The notes under the pieces are model-generated. The model ran no database searches, had not been told where the DNA came from, and was given only the letters and a program-made list of their open reading frames with translations. From NCBI RefSeq assembly GCF_002994745.2, contig NC_037093.1:19665555-19729554 (forward strand): 64,000 nucleotides of DNA. Direction: 5' to 3'. Origin of the DNA: Rosa chinensis (Eukaryota > Streptophyta > Magnoliopsida > Rosales > Rosaceae). A program made the translations under genes and the position numbers. This document shows positions 2,423-57,342 of the stretch, one piece after another; the first letter of the stretch is position 1, and the number at the start of each line of letters is the position of its first letter.

Positions 2423-2426
2423 ATAA

Positions 2427-2881: not shown

Positions 2882-3183
2882 GGGGAAATGATCATTTACC
2901 CAATTTTAGCTTAAAAATTGCCCACTTACCCAAACATTCTAAGAGATTGCCCACTTACCCAAACACTCTAAGAGATTATTTCCCTAATACCTAATTAAGT
3001 ATTTTTTAATTCATTTTTATTTATTTTTGGGACAATTTTGCCCTCTCCTTTTTTGTCACTTAGAGAAATAAGTCATTGGAGACCTTGCTTGACTCCGGTG
3101 ACGGACTCCGGCGACCAGTGACCTGTCACCGGAATTCGGAATCCGGCTACCGGATTGGTGACCGGATTCCGGCGTTTGAATTT

Positions 3184-3530
3184 ATTGCCCCTTAATAATA
3201 CCCAGTAACCATATTATTGCCGCCCAGTAATCATACTATTGCCCCCAGTAATTATATTATTGCCCCCCAGTAATCATATTATTGCCCCCCAGTACTCATA
3301 TTATTGCCTCCCAATAATCATATTATTGCCTCCAATAATCATATTGTCGCCCTCCAGTGAATTGCATAAACTCCCAAAACCAAAATGAATACACTACAGG
3401 CATAATTAATCAATTTATATGCACATTATTGCCCCCCAGTACTCATATTATTGCTTCCCAATAATCATATTATTGCCTCCCAATAATCTTATTATTGCCT
3501 CCAATAATCTTATTAATTATTTCCCCGCAA
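3184..3530. repeat. Degenerate tandem repeat, ATTGCCCCCCAGTAATCAT unit
   Basis: About ten copies of a roughly 22-24 bp unit (ATTGCCCCCCAGTAATCATATT and variants with CCTCCAATAATC) lie in two runs, about 3184-3360 and 3424-3520, separated by unrelated sequence. They lie inside the Pack-MULE. The related element at 46.7-47.1 kb carries similar ATTGCCCCCCAATAAAC units, so the repeat is a family trait. Mutator elements often carry such arrays near their termini. Confidence 0.8.
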
Positions 3531-3843
3531 TAGACATGTATAACTACCAATAAAACTTTTTTTTTCATTCTTCTTTCTTCTTTCCTTTCATCATTGCTAA
3601 CACAAAATCTAATCACCTCCTTGGTCTCATGCCCCAACCACGTTCCTCAAGAACAACAATTCTCAAAGCACAAGTCCTCCCACAATTAATATCACCGACA
3701 CAAAAAATAAAATAAAAAAACTCCTCGTGCCCCGTGAAACGACGTCGTCAAATCCTTTTTTCTTCCAAATCAAAAACCTAAAATTTTAGAGTCATGGACT
3801 GAGAGAGAGAGAGAAAGAGAGAAACAGAGAACCCAATCCTTTC

Positions 3844-4202
3844 ATGGCTCTCTCCTCATCTTCGTCGTCACCGTCCAAGAGTATAATGGTAACTGTCCCA
3901 GTACTGGTCCTCTCGTCCTCGATCGCCGCAGTCTTCTTCTTCTTCCTCTTGTCCTCTCTCTCATCCTGCTCCTGCGACGGTGGTCGTATCGCCGTCGCCG
4001 GCGTTCCGAGTCAGTCCGGCGGCGGAGATGTGGCTGTGACAACTGGAAGGTGGGAGAGCGGCGAGACGATACGGTCATCGAAGGAGGATGTGGAGTGGGC
4101 GAAGGATCAAATCCTAGTGAATGGGCTGCATATGCAGGATAACGTGTTGCGGAAGGGAATTAACCCTAGGACTCGGGCTCAGCAGCTTCAGGATCTCTTG
4201 CA
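3844..4202 (+). pseudogene. Captured host first exon: membrane-anchored protein N-terminus
   Basis: An open frame starts at ATG 3844 after a purine-rich leader. It encodes a Ser-rich start, a strongly hydrophobic segment (about residues 15-45, VPVLVLSSSIAAVFFFFLLSS), a Gly/Ser linker, then the well-formed stretch SKEDVEWAKDQILVNGLHMQ and KGINPRTRAQQLQDLL. It stops being protein-like at CA|GTATGT, a good 5' splice donor at 4203, followed by a GA microsatellite. It therefore looks like exon 1 plus the start of intron 1 of a host type II membrane protein captured by the MULE. From memory only, the KGINPRT..QQL..L stretch resembles plant membrane-anchored SAM-dependent methyltransferase-like proteins; this is uncertain. 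The catalytic part is absent. Confidence 0.6.
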
Positions 4203-4263
4203 GTATGTATACTCTCTTTCTGATAATCTCTCTGTGTTTCGATGGGGATGTTCCTCGCCGGAA

Positions 4264-4265
4264 AG

Positions 4266-4359
<94 letters not shown>
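4264..4359. repeat. (GA)n microsatellite
   Basis: About 90 bp of almost uninterrupted AG dinucleotides, probably from the first intron of the captured gene. Open frames through it are artefacts. Confidence 0.95.
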
Positions 4360-30260: not shown

Positions 30261-30265
30261 ATCAG
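30261..30265 (+). repeat. 5-bp target-site duplication of Copia element A (left)
   Basis: ATCAG precedes the LTR start TGTTGGAAC and is repeated exactly at 37825-37829 after the right LTR. Confidence 0.95.
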
Positions 30266-30895
30266 TGTTGGAACTTGTGGGACTTTAGTCCCATATGGAA
30301 GAAGTGTTAAAGGCTAATGGATGACATGTATAGAAGTGGGCTTTTCTAGTGGGTTTCCCATTGGATTATGCAAATATATATAAGTCAAAGATAGGCCTTG
30401 GTACTCTTGGGCTCGGATTGACTAAATCTGATTTTATTTTTTGCTTAACTGTTCAATTTTCTGATAAAATCTAACAGTTGCAATAGATGGAATCAAACAA
30501 CTGCCGACGCAACTGTTCATCTTGGCTTTTATATAAGGACGACCTTCGGTCGTCATTATCCATCGATCGATCTTCTTCTTCCTTTCCCCAAAAAGTTATT
30601 CTGAGAAACATAAAGTAGAATTCGTCAGGGTCAAGTTCTTGTGCAAGAACTTGTACCAGATAGTTGTATCCTCTAGATAGACGTCTGAAACTACAGCACA
30701 AGTAGGGGCGAATTTCTGTCTTAGGTCACTGCATTGCAGGCCTCTATCTGATCAAGTTAGTGATTCAATTTCGAATTAAAGTTATTTGATTTCAATTGAT
30801 TATTATTATTATATATTCAATTTGTGATTTAGATTATATATATATATATATATATATATACGGTTACTGTTCGTATATACTGATTGGTTCTAACA
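30266..30895 (+). repeat. 5' LTR of Copia A (630 bp)
   Basis: Starts TGTTGGAACTTG and ends GGTTCTAACA. TATATAAG near 30530 is the likely TATA box. Compared with the 3' LTR it lacks about 37 bp after GGCTAATGG and about 9 bp after GAAGTGGG, each bordered in the longer copy by short direct repeats (AATGG; GTGGG). It also carries a shorter TA run. These are deletions of the illegitimate-recombination type. Confidence 0.94.
30710..30726 (+). promoter_or_regulatory. LTR segment complementary to the PBS position (candidate self-primer)
   Basis: GAATTTCTGTCTTAGGT pairs with 30896-30912 over 17 nt: 16 Watson-Crick pairs and one G-U. In the 3' LTR the same place (37631-37647) differs by one C-to-T change that still allows a G-U pair. 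It lies about 150-180 nt downstream of the putative TATA box, so it should be present in the 5' part of the genomic RNA. Confidence 0.55.
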
Positions 30896-30912
30896 ATCTA
30901 AGACAGAAATTC
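30896..30912 (+). promoter_or_regulatory. PBS position of Copia A, self-complementary to its LTR
   Basis: ATCTAAGACAGAAATTC begins at the first base after the LTR's terminal CA, exactly where a primer binding site belongs. It has no TGG start and no likeness to TGGTATCAGAGC. It is complementary to 30710-30726 within the LTR, so the primer may be the element's own RNA, as in the fission yeast Tf1 group. The gag ATG follows at 30915. Confidence 0.55.
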
Positions 30913-30914
30913 CA

Positions 30915-31908
30915 ATGGATCAATCGGTATCTACTACGAAGAATCATGTGGAGAAACCTGAGAAATTCAAGGGTTCGGATTTCAAACGTTGGCAACACAA
31001 GATGTTGTTCTATTTGACAACTCTTCATGTGGCAGATGTTCTCACAACCGAGGCTCCAAAGGATCTTCCCGAAGGAGATGGAGAGAATGTTCCAACTGAT
31101 GCTCAAAAGGCCGAAAATCAGAAGGCCATTGTTGCCTGGGCGAGCAATGAGTTTCTGTGCAGGAATTATATCCTCAATGCCTTAGACGATTCCTTGTATG
31201 ATATTTACTCATCATTCAAAACAACAAAGGAATTATGGGAGTCGTTGGACAACAAATACAAGACTGAAGTTGCTTGTTCAAAGAAGTTTGTCATTGGCAA
31301 GTTTCTGAATTACAAGATGGTCGATACCAAGTCTGTTGTCAAGCAAGTGGAGGAACTTCAAGTCATTGTTCATGAGTTAGATGAAGAAGGTATGGGACTG
31401 AACTCGAATTTTCTTGTTGGTTCTGTTATTGAAAAGTTACCTCCTTCATGGAAAGATTTCAAAGTATATCTGAAACATCTAACTGAGGACATGAATTTTG
31501 AGCAATTGGTTCTGAAACTTCGTGTTGAAGAGGATCACCGGAAGAATGAAAGGGCTAATGCTACTTCTATGGAGCCAAACGCAAACATGATTGGAGGAAG
31601 TCCATCAAAGGCCAAGTTTCAGAAAAACAAAGGCAAGAATGTTGCTGCCAAACCAAGTCTTGCTGCTGCCAAGAAGTCACTCGCCCCACAAAAGACCAAA
31701 GTTTTCAAAAAACCACAAACTGGTGGATGTTGGGTTTGTGGCAAACCAGGGCATAGAGCAAAAGAATGTCACTTCAAGAAAGATCAAGGAGGTGGTGGTT
31801 CTGGAAATTCCAACAACCAAGCAAACCTTGCTGGAAATGAAAATCAATTCATTGGAGTGGTTTCTGCAGCAAATCTGGTAACTAATACAACTGATTGGTG
31901 GATTGATA
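30915..31908 (+). pseudogene. Copia A gag and start of protease (frame cut by solo LTR)
   Basis: Starts MDQSVSTTKNHVEKPEKFKG, with the gag pattern FKRWQHKMLFYLTTL and TTKELWESLDNKYK (UBN2 family). It is followed by a basic linker and a CCHC zinc knuckle CWVCGKPGHRAKEC (near 31730-31771) that binds genomic RNA. The protease begins at TTDWWID, where the frame runs into the solo LTR and ends after 12 foreign codons. The rest of the protease continues at 33484. Apart from the insertion this part is free of stops. Confidence 0.92.
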
Positions 31909-33483
31909 TGATAGCTAAATTTATAAGCTATTGATTTTCCTTATTCACACTTAAGATTGTCAATTATAGCAAGGGTAAACAAGGGTCTTTCCCGCAGAGG
32001 ACTAAGGTTATAACTACTCAAAACAATGTCACAAAAGTGACCACTGTTCCTAGCGAACAGCAGTCGAAAATCTAATTAAAAACCTAATTTAAACTACTCA
32101 GAAAATTACGAAAATTTACAGGGATGTACTAGACACACAGGGAGTCCAGCACACAAAATTTGGTGATTTTTGGATATCGTTTACTATAAAAATAAAATAC
32201 ATAAAGACAGAGAACAGAAAGAAAAACGAAACTGAAACAGATTTGAGATTGGTTGATATCAAGAGAATAAAGCTAGCTAGGGAAGATGCATCCACCCCCG
32301 ACAATCACACACAAGACAATTTGTTCAATCCTAATTCAATTAATCTAGATGAAGATGCTCAGGTTGGCTCGGTACGCTTCAACACAACCTATTACCCTTT
32401 CTTACTTCGTACGCTAGGCAGGAAGTGCTCTACACCTAGACTATTCCCTAACAATGCAACCTAAAGGTACGCTTATTAGATTAAACATGCAGAGATCATT
32501 AAGGTCTAAAAGAGTTTGAGACATCACTAGGCATCGCAATAAACTTAGCGCCTTGCTAAACCTAGGACTTAGTTTACTTGATAGTGAAAACTAACAATTG
32601 CTTCTCTAGAAGGTTTGAGGAGTCCAACTATTGACACAGGCATCAAACAATCAAAGCATTAGAAGCCTAACATGCATACTAAGCGTGCACTCAAAGCATA
32701 CAAGCAAGAATTCATCAATGGAAAGTAGTAAACAAAAGTCTCATCTTGGATTAACAGAAAATAACATCAAAAATCAAATCATCTTGTAGTTCATGTCTAG
32801 GGGCTTCAAGCAGCCCCCTAACTAATAAAAACTATCTAAACATAGAAGAAATAAAACTAACTAAAGAAGGGGAGGAAGAAGAAAAGCCAGAGCTGCTGCA
32901 GATTGATCCCTTTTATATGCTTAGAGGTTAGGAAATCCAAAACCTAAAAGAATTTAGGGTTCACGTGCTTAGGTGGAGTTTTCCTATTGGCGTTTGAGCT
33001 TGATGACTCATTCCAACCATTCACATCATACCATTTGTCCATCATAAGTCGGAATATGAAGCAGAAACTCGTCCTCGGGCTTCTTGGTGTGATTTGGGCC
33101 TCAAAACATAAATTCCCGTCCAACCTCAGATTCACGTGCGGCCTGACCTTCTTGTACTAAATCGGCCATAACTTCCTTTAGAAAAACGATATTGATGAGC
33201 CGTAAAAAGATTTGGAAACTAGACATCCAAGGCTTTCCACCAATATAAAGATCATTCTCTGGATCGTTCTGAGCTGGTCTCAGTGCTCTGTCGAATTTAA
33301 CTGATCTGCACAGGCAGATTTCCCGATTTTGCTTTTCAATCCCTCTTTTACTTCTTTTCTTCTTCTTTACTCCAAGACAGCTATAAAACAAATAAACAAA
33401 GTAAATAACTAGAAAATACACTAAACTAACAAAGAAAGTATGGAGATTAACGGTATTAATATCGCATAAATATGCTCTTATCA
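31909..33483 (-). mobile_element. Solo LTR, 1575 bp, inserted in the Copia A protease
   Basis: Flanked by TGATA on both sides (31904-31908 and 33484-33488), a 5-bp TSD. It begins TGATAGCTAAATTTATAAGC and ends GCATAAATATGCTCTTATCA, so both ends carry TG...CA with an inverted TGATA/TATCA. No coding region, PBS or second LTR is present. Read on the minus strand it has a TATAAAAGGG box at about 32905-32914 and a long leader-like part, so the LTR probably points left. Its family was not recognised. Removing it restores W-I-D-T-S-A-S in the protease. Confidence 0.88.
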
Positions 33484-36400
33484 TGATACTAGTGCTTCAA
33501 TGCACGTATGCTCTGCAAGGGAGATATTCACTTCATACCAGCCAATCAAGGAAGAAGAACCTTTGTTCATGGGGAATGCCACAACTGCCAAAGTTGAAGG
33601 AAAAGGGAAGGTGATTCTGAAATTCACTTCTGGAAAAGAACTTGTACTTACTAATGTACTTCATGTACCTGAAATATGTAAGAACCTAGTGTCTGGTCCT
33701 GTTCTAAGTAACAAGGGATTCAAACTAGTGTTCGAATCTGACAAATTTGTACTCACCATGGGTGGGGTGTATGTAGGAAAGGGTTACCTTAGTGAAGGGC
33801 TCTTTAAACTTAATGTTGTACCTACTATGGCTGCAGCTATTAATAATAATAATGCAGGCACTAGTGCTGCTTCTATGTACATGGTTGAGTCCTCTTCCTT
33901 ATGGCATTCTAGATTAGGCCATGTTAATTTTCGTTCTTTACAAAGAATGTTAAATTTAGGCATGCTGCCAAAGTGTTCAATGAATAAAATGACTAAGTGT
34001 GAAATCTGCATTGAATCAAAATATGCAGGTCACTCTCACAAATCTGTAGAGAAATCCAATGAAGTTCTTGGTTTAATCCATAGTGATTTGTGTGATTTTA
34101 AATCAACTCCAACTCGTGGGGGAAAGAATTATTATATATCATTCATAGATGATTGCAGTAAATATTGTTATGTATATTTGATACATAGCAAAGATGAGGC
34201 TTTAAATATGTTCAAAACATATAAAGCTGAAGTTGAAAATCAACTTGGGAAAAGAATAAAAATTCTAAGATCTGATAGAGGTGGAGAATATGAATCCAAA
34301 GACTTTGCAGAATTTTGTTCCTCTCATGGCATTGTGCATCAAACTACAGCTCCATATACTCCGCAACAAAATGGAGTAGCCGAACGAAAGAATAGAACCT
34401 TGAAGAATATGATAAATTCAATGTTAATTAGTTCGGGAGCACCACATAATCTGTGGGGAGAGGCTTTGCTTACTGCAAATATGATATTAAATAGGATTCC
34501 TCATAAACTAAGTGATCAATCTCCTTATGAACTATGGAAAGGAAGATTGCCTACTTATAAAACTATGAAAGTGTGGGGTTGTCTTGCTAAAGTTCAAGTT
34601 CCCTTTCCAAAGAGAACTAAACTTGGACAAAAAACAATAGATTGCATATATATTGGCCATGCCAATAATAGTGCTGCCTATAGATTTTTGGTTTACAAAT
34701 CCGATATTGCTGATATAAGCATAAACACAATCATAGAATCTGCTGAAGCAGAATTTTTTGAAGACAATTTTCCTTACAAGGATAGAACAAATCCAAGGAA
34801 AAGAACGTATGAAGATAATACGCTGCCTCAAAGTGAGTTAAACAAAAGTACTGAAATTGGGGAAAATGATAGTTCTACTGTTCAAAAAGAAATTCTAGAA
34901 CCAAGGAGAAGTAAACGTGGAAAGATTGCTAAAGAGTTTGGACCCGAATTTATGACCTTTAATCTTGAAGGAGAACCTCAAACATATAAGGCTGCCATGG
35001 AATCCTCGGAAGCACCTTATTGGAAAGAGGCTATTCAAAATGAAGTGGAATCCATTATACAAAATAATACTTGGACATTGGTTGATTTGCCTCCTGGGCA
35101 TAAACCAATAGGCCATAAATGGATTTTTAAAAGAAAGATGAGACCTGATGGTACCATAGAAAAATATAAAGCTCGTATAGTAGCTAAAGGGTATCGTCAA
35201 AAAGAAGGTGTAGATTTTTTCGACACTTATTCGCCGGTGACAAGAATTACGTCCATACGAACTCTAATTGCTATAGCGGCTGTACACAATATGGACATAC
35301 ACCAAATGGATGTGAAAACCGCATTTCTAAATGGCGAACTAGATGAAGAAATCTACATGGAACAACCTGAAGGGTTTATTGTTAAAGGTCAAGAAAATAA
35401 AGTTTGTAAATTAGTTAAGTCTCTATACGGACTTAAACAAGCTCCCAAGCAATGGCATGAGAAATTTGATAATACACTATTATCAAATGGGTTCAAAATA
35501 AATGAATGTGACAAATGTGTCTATGTCAAAGTATGTAGAAAAGCCTGTGTCATTGTATGTTTATATGTGGACGACATGCTCATTATGGGAACGAGTAAGG
35601 ATGTAATAAATCAAACAAAGAAAATGTTGCATTCCTCATTTGATATGAAAGATATGGGAATTGCGGACGTGATTCTTGGTATTCGAATTCAACGGAATTC
35701 GGATGGTTACATACTTACTCAATCTCATTATGTAGAAACAGTCCTTAGAAAATTTGGACACTATGATGATAGACCGGTGGTTACTCCATTTGATCCCTCT
35801 AGTCATCTTAAGAAAAATCAAGGTGATAGTGTGTCTCAATTGGAGTATACACAAGTTCTTGGAAGTTTAATGTACATAATGAATTGTACAAGACCAGATT
35901 TGGCATATAGTGTAAGTCGACTTAGTAGATACTCAAGCAATCCGGGAAAAGAACATTGGATTGCCTTAGTAAGAGTCTTACGATATCTAAAGCATACAAT
36001 AGACTATGGGTTACATTATACCAAATATCCTCCCGTAATAGAAGGGTATTGTGATGCAAATTGAATTTCCAATAATTCGGAAAGTAAGTCCACAAGTGGA
36101 TACGTATTTACACTTGGAGGTGCAGCCGTATCTTGGAAATCATCAAAACAAACTGTGAATACACGCTCAACTATGGAAGCAGAATTTGTAGCCTTAGACA
36201 AAGCCGCCGAAGAAGCGGAATGGCTCAAAAATTTCCTACAAGGTATTCCATTGTGGCCAAAGCCTGTTACGGCCATTTGCATACATTGTGATAGCATGGC
36301 TGCTCTTACAAGAGCAAAGAACCAAATCTACAATGGCAAATCGAGGCATATAAGGCGACGTCACAAAACAATTAGAGACTTGCTCAAGAATGGAATTATT

Positions 36401-36514
36401 TCCATTGACTATGTAAAATCAAAGGAGAATATAGCGGATCCTTTGACTAAAGGCCTTAATAGAGAGCAAGTCCTATTTATATCGAGGGGAATGGGCTTAA
36501 AGCCAATACAATGA
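33484..36514 (+). pseudogene. Copia A pol: protease, integrase, RT, RNase H (one nonsense codon)
   Basis: Protease continues with [15 protein letters not shown]; the usual DSGA/DTGA active site is DTSA here. GAG-pre-integrase: [10 protein letters not shown] and the CEICIESK zinc ligands. Integrase core: [28 protein letters not shown] (D, D, E). [40 protein letters not shown]. RNase [39 protein letters not shown] at 36062-36064 replaces the Trp of YCDANW and cuts off RNase H; otherwise the frame is open for over 850 codons. Confidence 0.94.
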
Positions 36515-37080
36515 GTCAATACTTGGCGGAAACCTAACCTAGCAACATTGGAGATCCCATGGTCTAGGTTCAATAGGCAAACTAGTTGGGGAAGACTCAA
36601 GATATTTAACACACACATATATGCTCATTCCTAAGATAAAACAAAGTGTGTTTTCCGTTGACGATTGAGGGATGAATATTAATATATATTCTTAATAATG
36701 CTAATAGCTTTTAAGTGGGATAGTACGGACTATTCTTAATTGGCATTACCTATATGAGATTGATGTGGGGTCGCATCTATGAGAACCAACATGGCTAAGT
36801 TCTCTAAAACTCTCACGAAGTAAGGAGTTGTTCAGGACCAAAATGAACACAACCGTAAGAATTTGGACTATGTCTAGATATGATATGTCTGATACTTGTT
36901 GTCTCGGTTTACTACAAAACGTGAATAGTTCAAGACTTGAGTTCACTACTTCACAAAGTAAATCCGATAAGTATTCACTATGAAAGGTTCCAGTCCAAAA
37001 GACACATTTTCCGATGCATATCCTATCAAAGTTCTCCGAAATAACGATGCGTTCCTACTTCGATCTCTTATTTTCTATTC

Positions 37081-37124
37081 AAATGTGGGGTATTGTTAGG
37101 GTTTGAATCGAAAATGTGGGGTAT
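37081..37124 (+). promoter_or_regulatory. Duplicated polypurine tract of Copia A
   Basis: AAATGTGGGGTATTGTTAGG (37081-37100) and AAAATGTGGGGTAT (37111-37124) are near repeats about 30 bp apart. The second directly precedes the 3' LTR start TGTTGG and is the functional PPT position. The first is followed by a near-LTR-start TGTTAGG. Confidence 0.65.
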
Positions 37125-37753
37125 TGTTGGAACTTGTGGGACTTTAGTCCCACATGGAAGAAGTGTTAAAGGCTAATGGCCTTTATAGGGAGCTTCCCAT
37201 GTAAAGAAGTAAATGGATGACATGTATAGAAGTGGGTTTGTGGGCTTTTCTAGTGGGTTTCCCATTGGATTATGCAAATATATATAAGTCAAAGATGGGC
37301 CTTGGGCCTTGGGGCTCTTGGGCTCGGTTTGACTAAATCTGATTTTATTTTTTGCTTAACTGTTCAATTTTCGGATAAAATCTAACAGTTGCAATAGATG
37401 GAATCAAACAACGTCAAACAACTGCCGACGCAACTGTTCATCTTGGCTTTTATATAAGGACGACCTTCGGTCGTCATTATCCATCGATCGATCTTCTTCT
37501 TCCTTTCCCCAAAAAGTTATTCTGAGAAACATAAAGTAGAATTCGTCAGGGTCAAGTTCTTGTGCAAGAACTTGTACCAGATAGTTGTATCCTCTAGATA
37601 GACGTCTGAAACTACAGCACAAGTAGGGGCGAATTTTTGTCTTAGGTCACTGCATTGCAGGCCTCTATCTGATCAAGTTAGTGATTCAATTTCGAATTAA
37701 AGTTATTTGATTTCAATTGATTATTATTATTATATATTCAATTTGTGATTTAG

Positions 37754-37790
<37 letters not shown>

Positions 37791-37824
37791 GGTTACTGTT
37801 TGTATATACTGATTGGTTCTAACA
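37125..37824 (+). repeat. 3' LTR of Copia A (700 bp)
   Basis: Starts TGTTGGAACTTG and ends GGTTCTAACA. It contains a perfect hairpin TGTGGGACT-TT-AGTCCCACA near its start, a TATATAAG box near 37450 and a longer TA repeat (37756-37789) than the 5' copy. It is followed by TSD ATCAG at 37825-37829. Confidence 0.94.
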
Positions 37825-37829
37825 ATCAG

Positions 37830-39938: not shown

Positions 39939-40979
39939 ATGTGACACGATATGTATAGTGATTCGTCTCTCGCTAAGCGTCCACTTGAAATCTTTAACTA
40001 GTGTATTGGGCCTTACGGCCCAATAAGATTACAAGTGTTGTAATGGGATGAATGTTTAAGTGGGAGGAGGGGTCGCTTTTATAGGTAAGGGAACCCCTCT
40101 CCTTTACATTTTTTTCAATGTGGGATGCAAAACCACTATTCTAGTCTTAGAAAACATGTTGTGAAAGTAACTTGGCAAGGCTGGGAAGGTTGCTTCCCGG
40201 CGAGGTCTTGGCCACTTCCGACTACCATGGGGTAGGTTGTATGTCGGGCTCCGGTATGCATGTCGTGGTTGGGCCCCACCATGACTTATGGGCCCACGAA
40301 GAGGGTGTTATTATGCTTGGTGATGTAGTAAATCCTTCATATTATTGGAGGTATGTACAAGTCTCCGAAGTCCCCAAGTAAGAGGAGCTTATTGGTTGAG
40401 GAGTTATAAACATGATGTCATCAAGCTTAAGTGACGTCCGAGAGGTGCCTAGCCCTTACAAGTCCTCGAACTCCGTAAGCAAGAAGGGACTCGTTAACCT
40501 GCACAACAAAGACAAAAGCTCGCATATGTAGAATGCTTGTTGTATTGGGCAACGTATGTGAGTTGCATTGATATGCATTAGCATATATGAATGTACGAGG
40601 TGCATGATACATATTGATGTATACATGAGAATGGCGCCGAGTATGATCGATTATGATGTATAGACTCTAGAACGCATATGGTTACGTGAGCATACAGATT
40701 GCATATGATAAATGCGTGATGTGCACAAGAAAATGAACGAGGTCGAGTTTGACGAGGTTACGCTCGTGAGGTGTAAGTTTCATGAGTGGCATGAAGGCAA
40801 GAGTTTGTAACTCATGAACGGTGACTACGGCAACGCTTGTGTTTGTTTGGTTTTTCGCTCGTATTAATGGAACGTAAAAAGAATTCGATTTGTGGCAAAT
40901 GACAAATGGTAGAAGAATTCAATGTTCCATTAATGTGTATTATGTCAAGGGGATGTGAGTGTAAATCTTGGGAATGCCG

Positions 40980-41465
40980 GAAGGCAAGAGCGTGAAAGCT
41001 CGGGGGTGCCGGGAAGGGGTGAGCGGGGAGCTAGGGGGTGCCGGGAAGGCGTGAGCGGGAAACTCGGGGGTATGGTGAAGGCGTGAGCGGGGAGCTCGGG
41101 GGTGTCGGGAAGGCTTGAAAGGGGAGCTCGGGGGTGCCGGGAAGGCTTGAACGGGGAGCTCAGGGGTGCAGTGAAGGTGTGAGCGGGGAGCTCGGGGTGT
41201 CATGAAAGCGTGAGGTGGGAGCTCGGGGGCACCGGGAAGGCTTGAGGGGGGAGCTTGGGGGTGTCGTGAAGGCGTGAACGGGGAGCTCGGGGGTGCTTTG
41301 AAGGAGTTAGCGTGGTGCTCGGGGGTGTCGTGATGGCGTGAGTGGGGAGCTCAGGGGTGCCTTGAAGGAGTGAGCGTGTTTCTCGGGGGTGCCGGGAAGG
41401 TATGAGTGCGAAGCTCAGGGATGCCATGAGGCGTAAATAGGTAGCTCGAAGGTGATGCCATGAGG
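40980..41465 (+). repeat. G-rich 32-bp minisatellite, about 15 copies
   Basis: The unit approximates GTGAGCGGGGAGCTCGGGGG followed by TGCCGGGAAGGC, with 10-25% divergence between copies. Each unit holds several G runs on the + strand, so G-quadruplex formation is plausible. Because 32 is not a multiple of 3, the antisense frames give a 32-residue Pro/Ser/Arg/His-rich pseudo-repeat; these are not genes. Confidence 0.92.
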
Positions 41466-43969
41466 GATGAATGTAACCATCACTAATTATGTTGGGCTGT
41501 TTGTACAAGTCCCCAAAGTCCCTAGTCAATTAGGGTTTTCTTGCGGGGTTGATACCAAAGCGTAGCTTTGTGCCTTATAAAGAGCATAATTACTGCAAGT
41601 GTGTCGTCAATCTAGAATTTGTCGGAGCAAACACTTAAGCCCTTTCGGGTGGACCCTTGCTAGGCTCTCCAAGGAGTCGCCCACTCCTGGCTATAAACCT
41701 CCGTATGGTCGAAAAATTATTTGATGAGGGAAGCTGCGTATAAGCAGTGGGCGTTAGGTAGCGAACCTAATCTTCGATACCCAAGCATCAGGGGTTAATT
41801 ACTGGATCAGTGGCAACCGTGGGCTGTGTTAACAGGTCCCTTTACTCTTTCCCAGAGGAGAAAAGCTTGACTGCAATGCCAGGTAGCAGTAATTTGTCAT
41901 TATGAGGCGTTGCCTTACCACTTGGCTGTTGGTCGTGGAGTCTTAGACCTGTTTAGGTCTCTTTCCCGTGGGGAGAGTACGTTTGACAAAATATGGTGCA
42001 CGGAGGCTAGCCAATATATTTACATATAGAGTACATGTAAAGTGTGCTAATTGTATGAATAACAAATAAACATGGCACAATTTGTTTAATTAAGCGTCAC
42101 ATGTTTATTTAATTGAGTTGCAATTAAATAGAAGCATGACATATATGTATAGCATGTACTTGTAATGAAGTTGCTAATAGCATTTTGTTAACATGCTTAA
42201 GGATCATTGAGATCAATATTTAAAAGCATGGCATATCTAGCACGTGAGGCCTAGAAAGTGTTGCCAAATCTACGAAATGTTGTAGGCATGCTTTTAAAAG
42301 TAGTAAAAGCATGTAAAGGCATGGCAATGGCTCTAATTGAAAGAGTGTAAAAGATAAAATATAGTTACTTGTTTTATGCCGATTTGGAGTGAGTTGGAGT
42401 TAGAATTTGTATAAGTACCCAAATCATGTTGGAGTTTTCCAAGCATGACTCTCCATTGCTCCGGCAAAGCACCTTAATAGAAGGATGATTGTTTTGCTAA
42501 ATGGAAAGGTGATCAGTCATTATGTCTCCTTGAAACGAAAATAGGTGATTAGCACATGAGTATGTAAAATCAACACTAATAGCTTATGTATGTACTTTGA
42601 TAAAATTTGAAGCAAAGTAATGTTGTAGTTGAGAACAAATGACATATTTGATTGTGTGCCTCTAATGTGAATTTCAAAGTGGCCATGAAATGTTAAAGAG
42701 GCATGTTCAATAAGCCACTATGTATATACTAGACGCTGGAGCATATACATAGAGTTGTGTGCACCTAATCATTTTGCATAAGATAAACATTGGTCTAGAA
42801 TGACTATAGTGGGTTTAGATGAAAATCTGTTGCAATTGTAATACCAAAAAGATCAAGGATGAGCATGTTATATGTGCACAGTTTGAATGTATTTTTCACG
42901 AGGTAACATGTGAAGCGTTAGCTCCGAAGTAATGCATTAATTGAGTTATCCCAAAGGTAATAGAGGTGTGATGGTGGCATGCTTAAATGGGTTAACTGAT
43001 CCATCATTTTGCTAGTGCCTTATAAGATACAAAAGCTTAGATGTATGAAATTAGTGCTGACAGCTAGCCTCACCAAAACATGCTTGTGTGCAAATGATCT
43101 AAGTAAAGATAAAGCATGCGGCCAATAGATTAATACCAAATGTAAGATATGGTAAGAGCTAGCATGTATATCCAACACTTGGCATATGAATAAGTGAACT
43201 GAATGATGGCATATAGTATACTATTATCTTGACAAATATCGTTTGTCCACACTAAACTATGAATTATGTGCAATAAACATGCGTATGTGTCAATATATCT
43301 AACATCAAGTCTGAGCTGCACTATGGGAGAGTAGCCACTCACACAGTCATAAATCATTCAAATATGTTCGAGTGAGTGATACTGCAAGCATGCTTATCCA
43401 TATTCTATTGTTAATGAACGATAATCATAGAGATATGAATCCTGGCCTTTCACCGCAGCAATTGAAAGTTTGAAAAACTTATCTTCTTCTCAGCTAGACA
43501 CTTTGGAGTACTATCAAATGCTCGGAGCAGATTGCTTGATTCTTAGGAGGGACAAGCTGGGTGCTCAGAGAAGGTACAGGGGTGCCCAGAGTAGATGATG
43601 AGCAAGCTAGGTATGCGATGGAGGTGGCTGACATTCAGCGGGGGGAGAGAGATGATCGAACTGAGGTTGATGATCAGATACCCACTAGGTTGGTCTGAAA
43701 TTGATTCAAAAACTAAGGATTGATGATTAAGTAATGCCCAAATTGCTCATTCAATTCGATCATAAGTTGCAACCAATGTGTGATTGTCGAGATGGGGGCT
43801 TGAGTTGCGTTTAGTTGCAACTGAACACTGAACGCATCAAGATGAAGCAAAGATGGAGCCTGGGTGTGTGTTTGGCACTGAGACTGAGTGTACAATTGGA
43901 GTTGGGGGTGCCGCTAGGTTGGCTTTAGCGGTGTTGCTGCATAGAATCGTGCTACTAGCGGTAGCAGAG

Positions 43970-48608: not shown

Positions 48609-49031
48609 TGTAGCAGTAGTAATAAGTCTCATTACCAACATAACCACACAATTAGCAGCATTACAGATATCACGACCAACAGAAAGGCATGCGTGCCCTG
48701 CACATTAGAAGGACAATTTGGATTTACTTCAAGCATGCTGCCTTGCACATTATATATTTGATGTACTTACTTCAAGCAACAGTAGACAACCCATGTCTAT
48801 ATCTCACAGAGAACATAGAGAACAGCCTTTGTCTTACTCCACAAATGCAGGGCAATACTTAAACCATACAATTCAATAACAATTGTAAACCACTCATTTC
48901 AATTAACTTATTGTCTGATAGTTCTCCTAGAGTTTCATTGATTGTAATATAAATAGCAGATCATGTACACAAAATCATGAATGCAATATAGTATTCTTGA
49001 TCACAAGTTCCCAAAATTTCTTTTGCCTTCA
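48609..49031 (+). repeat. 5' LTR of Copia C
   Basis: Begins TGTAGCAGTAGTAATAAG and ends TTTTGCCTTCA, about 90% identical to 56560-56983. Contains ATATAAATAG (near 48948) as a TATA-like box. Confidence 0.88.
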
Positions 49032-49042
49032 TTTTTTCTTTT

Positions 49043-49054
49043 TGGTATCAGAGC
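49043..49054 (+). promoter_or_regulatory. PBS for initiator tRNA-Met (Copia C)
   Basis: TGGTATCAGAGC is the standard plant LTR-retrotransposon primer binding site, complementary to the 3' end of initiator tRNA-Met. It lies 11 bp after the LTR's terminal CA. Confidence 0.93.
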
Positions 49055-49086
49055 TCTCTGTTTAAAGGCTCTCTATCCATCCCATC

Positions 49087-50210
49087 ATGACCAACACTTC
49101 TAATACCAATTCTTCTAATTCCCTACTCCTTTTCTCCCTAGAAACAGCTTCTCAACTTTCTCCTAACCATGTCGCTAGTCTCATCCTCTCAAGCTTACTA
49201 AAGATAATTATCTTTTTTGGAAAGACATCCTCACTCTTGTGCTTCAAAATTATCGCATGTTTACCTTGGTCAATTGATCTGACCCTTCTCCACCTCCTCT
49301 TATTGGCACCACTGTCAACCCTGCCTATACTTCTTGGTTGCAGCGAGATCGCACTTGTCGCATTTGGATTACAGCTTCTTTGTTGTCCAAGTCGATTCTT
49401 CCATACACCTTCGGCACCACTACCACCCGCTCCTTATGGCTCACTCTAGAGCAGTGTCTTGTTGTACTAACCTGCTTCCATGTCCTCTAGCTCCACTGTC
49501 AAATCTAGACTATTTGTAAGGGCTCTCTTTCCATTGGCGAATACTTGCAGCCAATCAAAGCCATCTCTGATGCTCTTTCCACAACCAGCGAACCACTTAA
49601 CAAGTCTGATCTTATTGTTCATATCCTTTATGGCTCACCTCTTGAATATGAAACATTTACCACTTCAATCCAAGTGCGAGCAGAATTAGTTACCACTGAT
49701 GAACTGGACGACCACTTATTGAGTCAAGAGGTTGAGCTAGAGCTCTAGACAGCCCAACATGACTTAGTTCAACCACTCCCACCAGCCAAAGCCTTTGCTT
49801 TATCTTCCTCAAACCGGCCTAGACTCCCACCATGAGACCCAAACCATAATTTTTTCGACCAAATACCTTTACTCGACCTCGCTTTCCTAGTCCTTCTACT
49901 CAGTTTCGCACCACCTCCCCCAACTCTAACCCGCCTCTGCTTCCTAACCCATAATATCCCTATCTCCATCTCTTCAACAAAACTCCAACCCCAACCGTCC
50001 TCGCCCTCGTTGTCAAATCTATGGCTTGGCCAATCATAGAGCCTTGGATTGCTTAAACAAGTGGAACCATGCCTACCTGCAGAGTCGTGTCCCTCCAGCT
50101 CACTTGGCGGCCATAGCTGCTCTGATTCGCCGTTCTTCATATGCTATGCCGGCAGCCAACTTCACACCAACCTTCTCTGATGCACTGTTTCATCACAATG
50201 ATCCCTCTTA
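49087..50210 (+). pseudogene. Copia C gag, frameshifted
   Basis: Starts MTNTSNTNSSNSLLLFSLET, shifts frame near 49200 (expected ..NYLFWKDIL), and continues in other frames with WLTLEQCL, a piece with SDALSTTSEPLNKSDLIVHI (49545-49748) and a basic region. A knuckle-like CQICGLANHRALDCLNKW is readable near 50010-50065. Translation breaks several times. Confidence 0.75.
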
Positions 50211-52186
50211 GTCACTCTGGTACATTGATAATGGTGCAAACAACCACATAACATCTGACCTCTCCAACCTCTATCTGAGTGATCCATATAATGGTCCAGA
50301 TCATGTCACTATCACTAGCGGCCAAGGTTTGTCTATCAGTCATACTGGTTCTTTTATTGTATTTGTTCCTTCTTTTCACTCCAAATTTGTTTTAAGGGTT
50401 AAATACTGTTTACTCCCTGAACTTTCAGGGAAAAAATAGTTCAGTCCCTGCCTTTTCAATTTCACATGTTTACTCCCTCATCTCTCAATTTTGGACCAAT
50501 AGGTCCAATTTGTTATTCTCCGACCAAAAATGTCTATTCTACCCTCAAATTTTTTAATTAATTAATTTTTTGTTTTGAAAAGATTTTTTTCTCTTTTGTT
50601 TTGTTTTTCCTTTTTTTGATTGAGCAGATGAAGAGAGGTTTTGTGTTTCGGATTGATTTGGTCGCTTTAGAAATTTTGATGTTGAAGGAGAAGAGAGGTG
50701 GAAGAAGAAGAGGTAAACAAAAAAGGAAAAAAAAAAAGATTAAAAAAAATTAAGAAAAAGAAAAAAGATGAACTGAGGGTATAATAGACATTTTTATAGA
50801 GTTTTTTGACGGAATGGACCTATTGGTTCAAAATTGAGAGATGAGGGAGTAAACGTGTGAAATTGAAAAGGCAGGGACTGAACTGTTTTTTCCCTGAAAG
50901 TTCAGTGAGTAAATAGTATTTAACCCTTCTTTTAAACAACATTCTCCATGTTCCAAATATTTCTCACAATCTTTTATCAGCTTATCCATATGTTTCTGAT
51001 AACAACTATGCACTAACTCTCACTCCTTATGATTGTACTGTCAAGGATCTTCAGTCGGTGAAGGTTCTATTTCACGGCCCTACTAGAAATCCTCTCTACC
51101 TAATTCATCTTCGAAAGTCCACTTCACCTTCTGCCCTTCTGAGTTCTGCCTCTTCATCCTTGTGGCACCAGCGCCTTGGGCATCCTTCTTCCCAAGCTCT
51201 TTGTCGTCTCACTTCCCGTCATCAGTTGGGTGTTTTGAATTCTTGGACTAGCTCTTCTAATTTATGTTCAGGTTGTCAATAATGAAAAGAACAAAGTTGC
51301 TTTTTGTCAAGTCTTATTGTACTACTTCAGGACCTTTGCAACTTGTTCACTTGGATGTTTGGGGTCTTGCCCTTGTTTCTTCTGTTAATAGATTTTAGTT
51401 CTATGTAATCTTTATTGACGATTGGTCTCGCTTCACATGGCTCTTCCCTTTGCATCATGAATATGATGTTTTTCTTGCATTTCAACAATTTTGGTTGCTT
51501 GTTGAAAATCAATTCAATGCTAAGACAAAACTTTTTGGTGTGACAATGGTGGCGAATACACCAGTGCCGCCTTCAAGCTATTTTTAGCTAACAATGGTAT
51601 TGCACAACAATGTTTTTGTCCACACACCCCAGAACAAAACAATATGGCCAAAAGAAAACATCGCCATATCATTGAACTCACCACATTGTTTGTGCAGTCC
51701 TCATTGCCTTACAAGTATTAGGCTGAAGTAGTTCAAACATCATTCTATCTTATTAATCGTTTTCCATGTTCTTCCTTAAATTTCCTATCTCTATTAAATG
51801 GAATTTCATACCTTTCCAGACTACAAGTTTTTGCGGGTGTATGGCAGTACATGTTATCCTTGGCTCAAGCCTTACTCCAAGTATAAATTTGACTCTCGCA
51901 GCTGTCCTTGTGTTTTCATTGGCTATGATCTTTACCATAAGAGGTATAGGTGCCTTGACCCTAAAACTAGACGGATTTATATCTCTCGGCATGTTGCCTT
52001 TGTTGAGCATCACTTTTACTTCAAATCTGCCTCCCATCACCACTCGACCCGACACCAACTCTCTCAACCTCACTTCCTCCACTTCTCCCTTTGCCTCCTC
52101 CACTACCCATCGTTTTACCTCCTGCCTCACTACTGCTTTCCCTGTCGTCTTCCCCTTCACCTCCTCCTAATTGTTCCAACACCCAA
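50208..52186 (+). pseudogene. Copia C protease and integrase, decayed
   Basis: Protease-like WYIDNGANNHITSDLSNL (50218-50270) with Asn for the Ser/Thr of DSGA. After the MITE, NILHVPN and LLSAYPYVSDNNYALTL, then GAG-pre-integrase LWHQRLGHPSSQAL (51161-51205), integrase pieces with D..D..E sites in broken frames (HLDVWG; DNGGEYTSA; PEQNNMAKRKH) and a C-terminal FLRVYGSTCYPWL...RCLDPKTRRIYISRHV (51825-52000). The Glu of NGVAERKH appears replaced by Lys (NMAKRKH). Stops are frequent. Confidence 0.8.
50396..50926. mobile_element. Mutator-type MITE, 531 bp
   Basis: TIRs exceed 100 bp: left GGGTTAAATACTGTTTACTC, right (reversed) GGGTTAAATACTATTTACTC, continuing through CTGAACTTTCAGGGAAAAA. Flanks TTGTTTTAA (50387-50395) and TTCTTTTAA (50927-50935) are 9-bp TSDs with one mismatch. 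The interior is AT-rich with no coding. Ends match those of the 57501-58980 element, so both belong to one family. Confidence 0.9.
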
Positions 52187-52500
52187 TGTTATGTCTCATA
52201 TCTCAATTTACTGGTTTACTAGTCATTTAGACGGTAAACGACAACTACTTTCACTTTTTACTTTGTTTCGATACTTTTAGTAGACCAAAAAGTTGACTTT
52301 TAGTTCAGATTAGTTTTTGAGAAAATTTTCTTTACGAAAGTTGTAGAGGACATTAAACCAAGTCCGTGGACATATGGTACACTTAAATCAGAGTTCATAT
52401 GTGAAAGTTATGATAAAAAATGTAAAAGTTACTGTTCATGGTACGTTTTCTATGAAAGGATTACTGTGATAAGTTTCCATTTTTGGAAACTTACCCCCGA

Positions 52501-52543
<43 letters not shown>

Positions 52544-54842
52544 ACCCATTTATTTTCTTCCGGTGATTTCTCCTCCGTCCGGCAATGAATTTTGATGCCA
52601 CAGATACCGTTGGAAAGCTCTCGCTGTTTTCTTCAATTCTAGGGTAGTTTGGTGGCTTGGCTTGGACCGTGGAAGGTGCATCAAAGAGAAGAAGATGGAT
52701 GCGTCGCTTTTTTTCGGGTTTTGGTCAGAACTCGAGTTTCTGATCACTTCCAGCGACAATTCTTATTGGGTCTTTAAGCTCTTGGATCATACAACCATCC
52801 CTCAAAGTCTCTTGGTCCAATTTGAAGTGTGGAGCACGAACGGAAGAATTTAAATTCTAGGGTTTCAAAATCCCCCTTATGCTTTCAAGGTAAATTCTGG
52901 TCTTTAATTACACTTAAAATTGATCAATTAATGTTTTAGTTGAGAAATTTGTTGGGGATGTTGTAAGGAACATTTTGGCATAGATGTTGATACCTGGTTC
53001 GGGGGTTAGCCCACAGAGTGTGGGGCCCATGCGCCGCCACTATTGGTGGCTCTTGGGGGCCAATTCTGGCTTCCTAAATTGGCTAGTTGCGTTCCTTGTA
53101 GCTTGTGGAGCATGTTGGTGTGTGTTTGGGAAAATCGGAGAAAGTTTAATATCGATTGGGATTTTTGAAGTTTTGAATTTTCGAGTTGTGATTCAAGGAT
53201 ATCCGACCGTTGAATCGTGATGTTAATATAATTAAGTTGGTGAAACTCTAGGAGGTTGGGTTGAATCCGATGTGATTTGATTTTTGACGAATTTAATTTA
53301 TGTTGGGTTTTGTTTCCGAGTTGTTTTTATTGTCGAGCATTTTAAATTGTGGTTTACTAGTTGTCATTTGTTCAGGAAGACGTGCAAAGCCATCGCTCGA
53401 CGATGATACCCACACTTGACGGATTTAGCTATATATATACGGTGAGTAGACATTTATTTTGAATTGAAATGCATGCGATTCTAAGGATTCGGAATTAAAT
53501 ATTTGTAAAATGGTTTCTTGGACATTTTGGAAAATGATATTGGATCTTATATTATAATTTTGGTTTTGGATTATAATTTGAGCACATGATTCTATTCGGA
53601 ATTTAATTTCTATTTACCTCGTGATTTTCTTTTGATGATGATTTTGGAGACTTAATTGTGATTTAATTGGATGTTGACTTTCACAAAAGATTTCACTTTA
53701 CCATTTGTTTGACTTTTAGCTTTCGATGATTTATCTCCAATGAATGGTATGTTGGATTCTAAAATTGGTTTGACTATGAGAACTATGCTCTTAGTGATAC
53801 TATGATGATGCTAGTTATTGTCTGACTTGTTATATTTGTTTGTTTGTTGAATTGTAATTATATGTTGTTTGAGCCACTAGGAGAGAGGGGATGGATTGGT
53901 GGTCTCATACGAGTATAGCACTAACAGAGAATGTACTAGTAGCTATATAGTTGAGTCGAAAATACTAGGACAGAGGGGATGAACTAGGGGTCTTCAAATG
54001 GAGATACCAGGAGCGAGGGATGTACTAGTGGCTGTAGAAGTAAAGGTGGCTCCATGAGAGACGGGATGTACTGGAGGCCTAGATAATGATTGTCATTTTT
54101 GGAGATTTATGTAATGATGTATACATGTATGTTTGTGGACTCCTTGAGCTATTGTTGTACACTTGGGTAAATATATGTGTGAGCCTTGAATTGCTGGCTT
54201 CTCTGTCCGATAAACGTGTTTTTCATAAATGTTGATTTAAAGCTTTTTCTTTTACTATGGCGAATCGCATGCTTGGTTTTTAAAAGCATTTTTGAAGTGG
54301 GAAAGCACTAAATTATTCATTTCATTTATTTTGATTTAATTATTTTTCGTCCACTTACTAATTATTTCAAATACTTTTCCATGGGCCATTTGGTTTCAAA
54401 TGCCCAATTTGCAGTGTTGCTAGTTTGGCGTATTTAGGAGTTGAGGCATAGCATCCTTCCGCTGCTACCATTTTGTGTAGGTTACTAGCTTAACCTACTT
54501 GTAATGTAATTCAGTTTGTTTTCCTAGAATGCTCTGATTACCTATTGGGACAATTGTTATATTTTGGGAGTGATGTTTATGTACTTGGGATCATGTTAAA
54601 ATTCAAATATTTTAGTGAACTGTGGTAGTGATTTTTATGTGGATGTGGATTGTGTTTTGGGGAGTAGGGCGGCTTCAAGAGATTAAGGGTGAATGGTTAG
54701 AAGTGTAAATTTGTTCTTACAGGTTTTGGGTTGTCTACTTCTAGGGGAGGTTCTGCTGAATTTTTGGCAAAATCTTCTTTACAAATGGGCCCTGCAGGGC
54801 CACCTCAGTTTTCAAGGTGAAATTTCAGGATGGGTTCTGTCA
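52187..54842 (+). mobile_element. Solo LTR of about 2656 bp (Gypsy type likely) in Copia C
   Basis: Begins TGTTATGTCTCATATCTC and ends GGATGGGTTCTGTCA, with TG...CA termini. CCCAA occurs at 52182-52186 and 54843-54847 as a 5-bp TSD. It has no coding region; a CT microsatellite lies at 52503-52541. The phrase TTTACGAAAGTTGTAGAGGA near 52331 and the great length are typical of LTRs of plant chromovirus-type Gypsy elements; this classification is from general familiarity. Removing it rejoins the Copia C frame (PTPN|PHTT). Confidence 0.87.
52501..52541. repeat. (CT)n microsatellite
   Basis: About 20 CT units within the solo LTR. Confidence 0.93.
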
Positions 54843-56507
54843 CCCAACCCACACCACTGCCAAAAATTCGAAGACAAACCCGCCAAAAACCTGGTCCTCT
54901 GTCTCATCCCATGCAAACACATTCTCATCCCATGCAAACACGTTCCAAAAATAACACTTACAAACTTGAAGCCCTCAATACTAAGCACTCATTCCATAGT
55001 GCACTTCTTGCCACTTCTCCTGCCACTAAACTTCCCACCACCTCTCCAAGCTCCCAAAGACCCAAAGTGGGTTGCTGCAATGGAAGATGAAATTCAGGCA
55101 CTCCGGAATAACGAAACTTGGCATTTGGTGCCCTTTCATCCCACTCAAAATGTCATGGGCTGCAAATGAGTCTTTAGGATCAAATATAAGACTAGCGATT
55201 CTATTCATGGTTATAAAGCCCGTTTAGTGGTTAAGGGCTTCTAGAAACAAGTTGGCATTGACTATTCCAAAACTTTCAGCCCAGTCTCAAAGCCTACCAC
55301 CATTCGTGTCATCCTTTCCTTGGTTGTCCAATATAACTGGCCCATTTCCTAGTTAGATGTATCAAATGCTTTTCTTCATGGTTAACTCACTGAAACTGTC
55401 TTTATGGCCCAACCAACATGCCTCATTGACCCACAAATGCCCACTCATGTTTGTCAACTCTGCAAGTCGCTCTATGGGTTAAAACAAGCCCAATGGGCTT
55501 GGTATGACGATATGTTCCAATCTCTCTTATCTTTGGGATTTGTCACCTCCTCTGCTGATCACTCTCTCTTTGTCGAAATTGATAGCTACATCACATATCT
55601 CCTTGTCCATGTCGATGACATAGTCATCATTGATAACTCATCTGGTTATTGCCAATGTCTCATTCAACAACTCAATTCAAAATTTGCCATTAAAGATTTA
55701 GGTCCACTGTACTACTTCTTGGGTCTGGAAGTACATCACTCACCCAATTCTCTCTTCCTTTGCCAAAAAAAATTAATATACATATGATCTCGTAGACAAG
55801 TTTCATATGCTTGATGCCAAGCCCTCCCTTTCTCCAGAAAGCCCTATAAAGCTTGACAATCATTCTAGTGATCTAATCCATCCACCTATCGCTCCATGGT
55901 TGGAGCCCTACAATATCTTACTTGGATCCAGCCAGACATTGCTCACGCCGTCAACTAAGTCTGCCAGCATATGCATTGTCCAAGAACCCAACATCTAGTG
56001 GCTGTCAAACGTATCCTTCCCTATCTTAAAGGTATGCCTGACCATGGTCTTACTTTCTCTAAGGGTCTTAATCTCCTCACTACATTTTCTGATGACGATT
56101 AGGCTGATTGCCCAATTGACTGACGTTTTACAACTAGATTTTGTGTCTTCTTGGGTAACAACTTAATATCTTGGTCAGTTAAGAAATAGTCCTCTGTTTC
56201 ACGATCTTCCACGAAGGTTGAATATCGTGCTTTGGCCTTATCCGTGGTTGACGTCTCTGGTTGTGTGTTCCTCTTTTGTGATCGTGGTCTCTATTTGTCT
56301 CAAAGTCCCTTGTTCTACTGTGACAATGTCTCTGCTCTTGCTTTGGCTGCTAATCCCATTCTCCACTCTAGAGCAAAGCATGTTGACATAGACTTTCACT
56401 TCATTCGAGAACCCGTTGCTAACAAATCCATATGTCTTCAACATGTCTCCTCTGTTGCCAATGTTGCCGATATCTTTACCAAGGGCTTCCCAAGCATCGT
56501 TTTGTAG
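54843..56507 (+). pseudogene. Copia C reverse transcriptase and RNase H, decayed
   Basis: RT: DPKWVAAMEDEIQALRNNETW (55058-55120), [52 protein letters not shown] (active site YVDD changed to HVDD, 55609-55632), LGPLYYFLGLEV. RNase H: YCDNVSALALAANPILHSRA and KHVDIDFHFIRE (56311-56420), DIFTKGFP. In-frame stops at several sites show loss of function. Confidence 0.88.
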
Positions 56508-56559
56508 ATCTCAGCTCCAAGCTGATAGCTTGATCATCGACCTTCAGCTTGCGGGGGCA

Positions 56560-56983
56560 TAATAGCAATAATAATTCTCATTACCAACATAACCACACAA
56601 TTAGCAGCATAACAGACATCACGAGCAACACAAAGGCATGAGTGCCTGCACATCAGAAGGATAATATGGATTTACTTCAAGCACGCTGCCCTGCACATCA
56701 AAAGTACAATATGATGTACTTAATTCAAGCAATAGTAGACAACCCATGTCTATATCTCACAGAGAACATAGAGAACAACCTTTCTCTTACTCCACAGATG
56801 CATAGCAATGCTCAAACCACACAATTCAATAACAATTGTAAACCACTCATTTCAATTAAGTAATTGCCTCATAGTTCTCCTAGAGTTTTATTGATTGAAT
56901 ATAAATAGCAGATCATGTACACAAAACCATTAAGGCAATATAGTATTCTTGATCATAATTTCCCAAAATTTCTTTTACCTTCA
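56560..56983 (+). repeat. 3' LTR of Copia C
   Basis: Follows GCGGGGGCA and starts TAATAGCAATAATAATTCTC, the counterpart of TGTAGCAGTAGTAATAAGTC. Ends TTTTACCTTCA. A duplicated CTGCACATCA phrase differs between the two LTRs. Confidence 0.88.
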
Positions 56984-57342
56984 GTTTTTGTTTATTATGC
57001 CTTATTATCCACAATTCCACATATAAGCCACATACGTATTATCAATTCTAGTTGTTGTGTAAGTGGGAGCTCATAAATTTGACTTGTGGATAACCAGTTG
57101 TTGTGCGATAAAAAACTAAGAAGTGATAACCATAGGATCATTTGGATGAGATGATTCTCAAGTTCAGGGAGTTGGTTGACAGTATAATTGAGGTCAATTG
57201 CTTTTTTAGACTACTATCAATTACCCCGCCCTTATTACAATTTACATATGTCAAGATTTGATCTAGAAGAATCAAATAAATGCATTTCAAATGATTTCTT
57301 GCATATTATTGTTTTAAATCCACTCTAAATATATTGTTGTTG
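56984..57342. other. Spacer between Copia C and Copia D
   Basis: AT-rich, no gene or repeat terminus recognised. Confidence 0.4.

Follow-up and report, generated by a model that had tools for sequence, protein, structure and literature searches.

The window analysed here, a stretch of 64,000 nucleotides of the Rosa chinensis genome, contains an LTR retrotransposon of the Copia type (the focal element) that spans positions 30266-37824 and is flanked by identical 5-bp target-site duplications, ATCAG, at 30261-30265 and 37825-37829. Its 5' LTR (30266-30895, 630 bp) begins with TG and ends with CA. The limits were set from these end motifs, the flanks and LTR copies that lack an interior; in 27 of 29 such copies, the focal 3' LTR among them, AACA is followed by other DNA, the exceptions being L041 and L047, which differ, and L028 and L031 have one flank in common. 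The 3' LTR (37125-37824) measures 700 bp and lies behind a candidate polypurine tract, GTGGGG, placed by eye at 37116-37121. Between the LTRs, and like them on the forward strand, lie a gag open reading frame of 339 amino acids (30915-31934), in which Retrotran_gag_2 is recognised (P0001) and a CCHC knuckle scores below its cut-off, and a pol reading frame (33470-36064), in which the integrase (rve, 191-288 of P0002) precedes a reverse transcriptase (RT) of the Copia type (RVT_2, 522-764). An integrase upstream of such an RT, together with gag, is the arrangement of Ty1/copia elements. Past an in-frame stop, the frame continues at 36065-36514 with a sequence that resembles the RNase H end of relatives. 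Some 1.6 kb without a recognisable frame separate gag from pol (31914-33488, ends set by eye). In relatives such as P0003 the frame is uninterrupted at this place, and we regard the stretch as a nested insertion of unknown type; the focal copy is non-autonomous, being broken between gag and pol. A short repeat, ATGATA, flanks both edges of the stretch.

A second Copia element, Copia C, occupies 48620-56993. Its two LTRs are about 90% alike, its RT is 34.5% identical to that of the focal element, and it carries at 49043 a primer binding site (PBS) of the initiator-tRNA type, TGGTATCAGAGC, the standard site that the first-pass annotation of the window had assigned to it. The window also holds a tandem array of a 32-bp unit (40928-41469), whose copies are 61-76% alike to the reference copy, and, at 61438-62551, clustered repeats in both direct and inverted orientation, each about 80-230 bp long.

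The 17 nucleotides that follow the focal 5' LTR (30896-30912, ATCTAAGACAGAAATTC) pair with 30710-30726 (GAATTTCTGTCTTAGGT) inside the same LTR through 16 Watson-Crick pairs and one G-U pair, which reproduces the observation from which the first-pass annotation proposed self-priming. The perfect part of this match is 15 nucleotides long and joins the LTR segment 30710-30724 to a PBS at 30898-30912; the LTR bases 30725-30726 lie opposite a two-base spacer, AT (30896-30897), and add one G-U and one A-U pair. The pairing had been described as starting at the very first base after the LTR. A PBS beginning there was rejected, since across relatives the AT spacer recurs and the match starts two bases after the terminal CA (hereafter CA+2). 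The sequence directly 3' of the 5' LTR, ATCTAAGACAG, does not begin with TGG, as had been noticed earlier, and the PBS is therefore not the complement of a tRNA 3' end; this rules out an ordinary tRNA PBS for the focal element.

Dinucleotide shuffling of the LTR, repeated 20,000 times, gave a match of 15 to the 17-mer as its best result (in three shuffles) and never one of 16, in keeping with the earlier judgement that a chance match is very unlikely; the analytic expectation is about 1e-5. When 6188 interior 17-mers were compared with the element's own LTR, this one alone gave 16 matches, the two with 15 overlap it, and the remainder gave 14 or fewer. The corresponding 17-mer of Copia C, a fair negative control, matches its own LTR at only 11 of 17 positions. 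The copy of the segment in the 3' LTR (37631-37645) carries one C-to-T change that, as had been pointed out, still pairs as G-U, but this is weak evidence because a C-to-T change opposite G always leaves a G-U pair.

A search of the Rosa chinensis genome (515 Mb in 53 contigs) with the LTR-PBS region gave at least 61 matches (40 of 107 first-look candidates scored), among which 11 copies, the focal one included, span both LTR and PBS. The LTR segment and the PBS core, CTAAGACAGAAAT, are identical in all 11; L016 has a different first spacer base, L024 differs past the core, and the final base alternates between C and T. Across 40 LTR copies, the 17-base segment shows four differences in total, or 0.24 per column, compared with 0.76 per column in the neighbouring 129 columns, which are well conserved too. 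The focal family thus displays constraint without covariation, and its 11 spanning copies contain no compensatory change.

More distant relatives were collected by a gag protein search of the same genome, which returned at least 120 matches with identities down to 29% (119 of 2097 first-look candidates scored). Matches starting in the first 20 residues, plus the focal element, provided a set of 80 gag-upstream sequences that left out close copies of the focal family and at least one further match. A motif-free search for the longest Watson-Crick run between the 75 nucleotides before gag and the preceding 1 kb found runs of at least 12 pairs in half of the set (40 of 80), and 36 of these 40 start exactly at CA+2. 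Of those 36 loci, the focal element among them, 35 have AT as the spacer and one has TT, and the LTR segment is followed by G in every case. The other four comprise two simple repeats (L088 and L092) and two runs that are one or two bases off (L137 and L140).

A motif test, in which the PBS was taken as the 15 nucleotides after [CT]AACA[AT]T no more than 60 nucleotides from gag, gave a similar picture. The motif is present in 63 of the 80 loci, and the best match of the PBS within the element's own upstream 870 nucleotides was 15 in 19 loci, 14 in 15, 13 in 15 and 12 in four. At least 12 positions thus match the element's own LTR in 53 of 63 loci, in one of them (L086) at a different and probably spurious place. 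Shuffled upstream sequences (12,600 in all) gave a match of 12 or better in 4.0% of cases and of 13 or better in 0.3%, and 47 of the 63 elements beat all 200 of their own shuffles. When PBSs were compared with the LTRs of other elements (PBSs differing at four or more positions), 438 of 2974 comparisons reached 12 and 123 reached 13, a figure to which related families contribute. The remaining ten motif loci have best matches of 11 (five), 10 (four) and 9 (one), and several motif-less loci show none, for which decay of old copies is the likely reason. The families have distinct PBSs, e.g., CTAAGACAGAAATTC, CTTTAGACAGAATTT, CTTAAGAGTAGAT, TTTAAGGAGATTCAA and TTTCAGACTATA, each with its partner in its own LTR; even related elements may differ (CTTTAGACTTTATTT versus CTTTAGACTATATTT), and again each LTR holds the partner. 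Since the PBSs differ from family to family in this way, no single host tRNA can explain the pairing. The LTR segment probably has a short stretch in common with the anticodon loop of a leucine tRNA.

A wider search, which admitted any CA+2 site before gag, covered the 17 motif-less loci as well as L108, L128 and L132. It added CTAAAGCCGTAGA in L145 (weaker in L152), CTAAAGCCTTTGTA in L146 and L150 (weaker in L149), and CTTAAGACGAAATT in L110, in families with leaders of about 200-540 nucleotides. L121, L132 and L138 match as their sister elements do, L158 and L128 match in part, and no more than short runs (8 and 10) are present in L085 and L126, beside an altered LTR end; this search gave no convincing self match in L108, L111, L139, L151, L155, L157 or L160. 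The distance from PBS to gag in L145, L146, L150 and L152 is some 330-540 nucleotides, compared with the usual 20-40 or so. Elements of 31-34% gag identity had been considered as a non-self-priming control and were dropped, as L145, L146 and L150 match (L149 and L152 more weakly), which leaves Copia C as the sole negative control.

Covariation was counted over 17 primer/PBS types chosen by the authors; a count over 13 types agrees. Standard pairs fill 94.9% of cells, compared with 61.8% when partners are re-dealt (0 of 500 as high), and sliding the register by one to three columns lowers pairing to 31-51%. Compensatory change, proposed earlier as a check on the pairing, is absent within the focal family, as described above, and evident across families, where both partners have changed in 14 of 15 pairs (11.0 on average after shuffling, with 6 of 500 shuffles as high). 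However, this count leans towards the structure because the register was set by the best match; more weight as controls belongs to the motif-free search and the shuffled sequences described above. Two landmarks serve as a partly independent anchor: in most of 13 representatives the segment comes after a G-rich stretch and a TTGTATCC-like (TTGTATC-like) motif is found about 46-64 nucleotides upstream of it. This motif lies at 30664-30671 in the focal element, is present in L093, L097, L114 and L119, and has no clear counterpart in L110 and L150.

Retroviral integrase removes two bases outside the CA before insertion, and by analogy the AT spacer would fit the role of the trimmed bases. Its T faces a G (the G-U pair) and its A mostly has no partner; trimming would explain why the bases opposite the spacer are not kept complementary. 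The focal TATA box, TATATAA at 30530-30536, lies 180 nucleotides upstream of the segment and would place the RNA start near 30560, about 150 nucleotides away. The segment therefore appears to lie downstream of the RNA 5' end, a point on which the earlier reading could have failed. TATA-like boxes lie 180-297 nucleotides upstream of the segment in the 13 representatives, several of which have other candidates, and from these positions the segment would lie some 150-265 nucleotides inside the RNA.

At the 3' end of the putative primer there is a candidate hairpin (30723-30743), in which AGG pairs with CCT around an inner stem and which includes the last two bases of the primer. The sequence of the inner stem varies and its pairing stays. 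Over 14 families, 96.8% of cells are paired, compared with 79.8% after shuffling (0 of 500 as high), and 18 cells are two-sided, compared with 6.0, in pieces that were trimmed by eye and to which the structure itself was fitted; the three hairpin pairs with two-sided changes are no more than the shuffles give (295 of 500 as high). This makes the hairpin a suggestive feature only, and a candidate guide for an RNA cut. As for the leader as a whole, the predicted fold of the focal RNA contains the primer-PBS stem (z -3.7), as does the minimum-energy fold of eight of the 11 close copies, the exceptions being L017, L020 and L023. The segment and the PBS are only 72-90 nucleotides apart in several families.

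The pairing, its covariation across families and the spacer are read directly from the DNA, with the hairpin as a suggestive addition, and they make it highly probable that minus-strand synthesis in this Ty1/Copia element, very probably a member of the TAR lineage, is primed by a piece of the element's own RNA. The earlier proposal of self-priming is thus strongly supported by the comparison of families. The LTR segment 30710-30724 would anneal to the PBS at 30898-30912, two bases outside the LTR, and cleavage of the RNA directly behind the segment (AG|G), where the base of the hairpin lies, would provide a 3'-OH annealed to the PBS; the cutting enzyme may be the RNase H of the RT, an assignment made by analogy with Tf1. 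RT would extend the freed end through U5 as far as the cut, and the resulting short DNA would then be transferred to the 3' LTR, which restores everything upstream of the cut; the scheme requires polyadenylation downstream of the segment. If plus-strand synthesis copies the attached primer, the PBS would be rewritten from the LTR in each round; the integrase would later remove the AT. Such rewriting would by itself explain the covariation, and the segment would be the primer either way. For plant TAR elements in general, we consider the chances about even that the complete scheme holds: an internal self-primer, 150-265 nucleotides inside the RNA, that is excised at the base of a conserved and covarying hairpin in U5 and from which DNA synthesis begins two bases beyond the LTR end, with the integrase trimming these bases and primer copying keeping the PBS in step.

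Alternatively, the pairing could form a structural stem of the leader, with a function in packaging, dimerisation or translation control, and another RNA, such as a half-tRNA, could act as the primer. The portions of Neumann et al. 2019 considered here report half-tRNA primers for the Copia lineages Bianca, Osser and Bryco and part of Gymco-II (PMC6317226), and the occurrence of the stem in most predicted folds of close copies would suit such a role. However, roughly a dozen distinct PBSs occur in this one genome, each with a match in its own LTR, and the match begins at CA+2, the very place of a PBS, in nine-tenths of the strong cases (36 of 40); a structural stem is thus an improbable explanation, and half-tRNA priming in particular is made unlikely by PBSs that are specific to families. 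Still less probable, and only a slight possibility in our view, is self-priming in trans or end to end, in which the primer would come from the 3' LTR copy or from the second packaged RNA. The segment is present in both LTRs, and cis and trans sources are indistinguishable by sequence, and nothing speaks directly against this reading; the leader stem is predicted to fold in cis in eight of 11 copies, and the distance between segment and PBS is short in several families. Chance complementarity, for which we found no supporting point, is refuted by the comparison of families, the own-LTR matches and the shuffles and can practically be dismissed.

Self-priming by excision of a piece of the element's own RNA therefore remains the preferred reading, and it has a precedent in print. 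The first-pass annotation knew of no plant Copia case, but Neumann et al. 2019 have predicted that elements of TAR, a lineage of plant Ty1/copia, prime themselves, and they refer to an earlier suggestion of this kind for Houba and Osr-1, as far as the portions considered go (PMC6317226); the focal element is thus not the first. In the same portions, self-priming was recognised by a self-complementary PBS of at least 10 bp that lies 0-5 bp after the 5' LTR (PMC6317226), and the focal element has one of 15 bp, 2 bp after the LTR. On this basis, the element very probably belongs to TAR. Rice polyproteins of 53% identity (P0113 and P0119) carry no lineage label, and the best named relatives of Pol come from Tanacetum and Centaurea. 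Within the best 150 of 10,299 candidates, RT matches in the rose genome range from 100% to 49% identity; the RTs that by position lie behind self-primed gag loci are at least 58% identical, and many further matches form a group at 49-54%.

Outside the rose genome, viral contigs searched with P0002, alignment A1 and an LTR pattern contained no relative, and a search of genome contigs gave seven loci (L001-L007), only one of them close (L001, 54%). This plant relative has the AACA-AT junction and no LTR partner (best 9 of 15). It lies at 1-4351 of NZ_SWBM01000016.1, filed as Robertmurraya kyonggiensis, where a plant-type Copia pol, an LTR-like stretch and a second gag are found; the contig probably represents contamination by plant DNA, with the parts in the order expected of a tandem or a one-LTR circle. 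L002-L007, six contigs in bacterial assemblies with a Copia-type Pol of 34-41% identity, are probably eukaryotic contamination.

Overall, the focal element is an ordinary member of a lineage for which self-priming had been predicted before, and the new evidence makes the mechanism directly testable. In the parts of the literature compared, experimental proof of self-priming concerns Tf1 of fission yeast, and the plant Copia prediction rests on a search for complementarity. That LTR and PBS covary over many families within a single genome is a different sort of evidence, and it suggests that about a dozen families may depend on self-priming. This reading predicts that the RNA is cut at AG|G, that strong-stop DNA begins at CA+2, that the hairpin plays a part, and that polyadenylation takes place downstream of the primer. 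Elements of this kind would escape annotation that searches for tRNA-like PBSs alone.

Among known systems, the closest are the TAR elements Houba, Osr-1 and Fourf, which are likewise Copia elements with no tRNA PBS and with a PBS complementary to their own 5' LTR (PMC6317226). We know of no difference from the description of TAR in the main-text portions of that paper. What the present analysis adds is the covariation among families of a single genome, the AT spacer, a primer that would lie 150-265 nucleotides inside the RNA, and the hairpin at its 3' end; the open-licence literature consulted, with the main-text portions of Neumann et al. 2019, mentions for TAR neither covariation nor a spacer of two bases nor a hairpin, and the passages covered of PMC2206039, PMC4659654, PMC4963935, PMC3352295, PMC1940013 and PMC5338827 contain nothing on TAR self-priming. 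Bianca, Osser and Bryco also lack a PBS for a full tRNA 3' end; their PBS, however, is reported in the portions considered as a half-tRNA match (PMC6317226). The fungal GalEa Copia elements, according to the passages compared, have no tRNA PBS and a conserved hairpin site at the LTR edge, but that site is a palindrome, and the authors found no complement in U5 (PMC5445492). Self-priming is likewise predicted in plants for the Tcn1 clade chromoviruses of moss and club-moss in the portions considered (PMC6317226), which in contrast are Ty3/gypsy elements related to Tf1/sushi. The Tf1/sushi elements themselves (Tf1, Tf2 and Tj1) share with the focal element a PBS complementary to their own RNA and a cut that must free the primer; in the passages considered, they are Ty3/gypsy elements whose primer is the first 11 nucleotides of the RNA (PMC7175516, PMC4600332). 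The focal primer, in contrast, is 15 nucleotides long and would lie about 150 nucleotides inside the RNA, and the focal pol does not have the Ty3-type order, with the integrase after the RT. The focal element is Tf1-like in principle and stands outside the Tf1 group; if the proposed scheme is true, an internal excised primer would constitute a second, mechanistically distinct form of self-priming beside that of Tf1.
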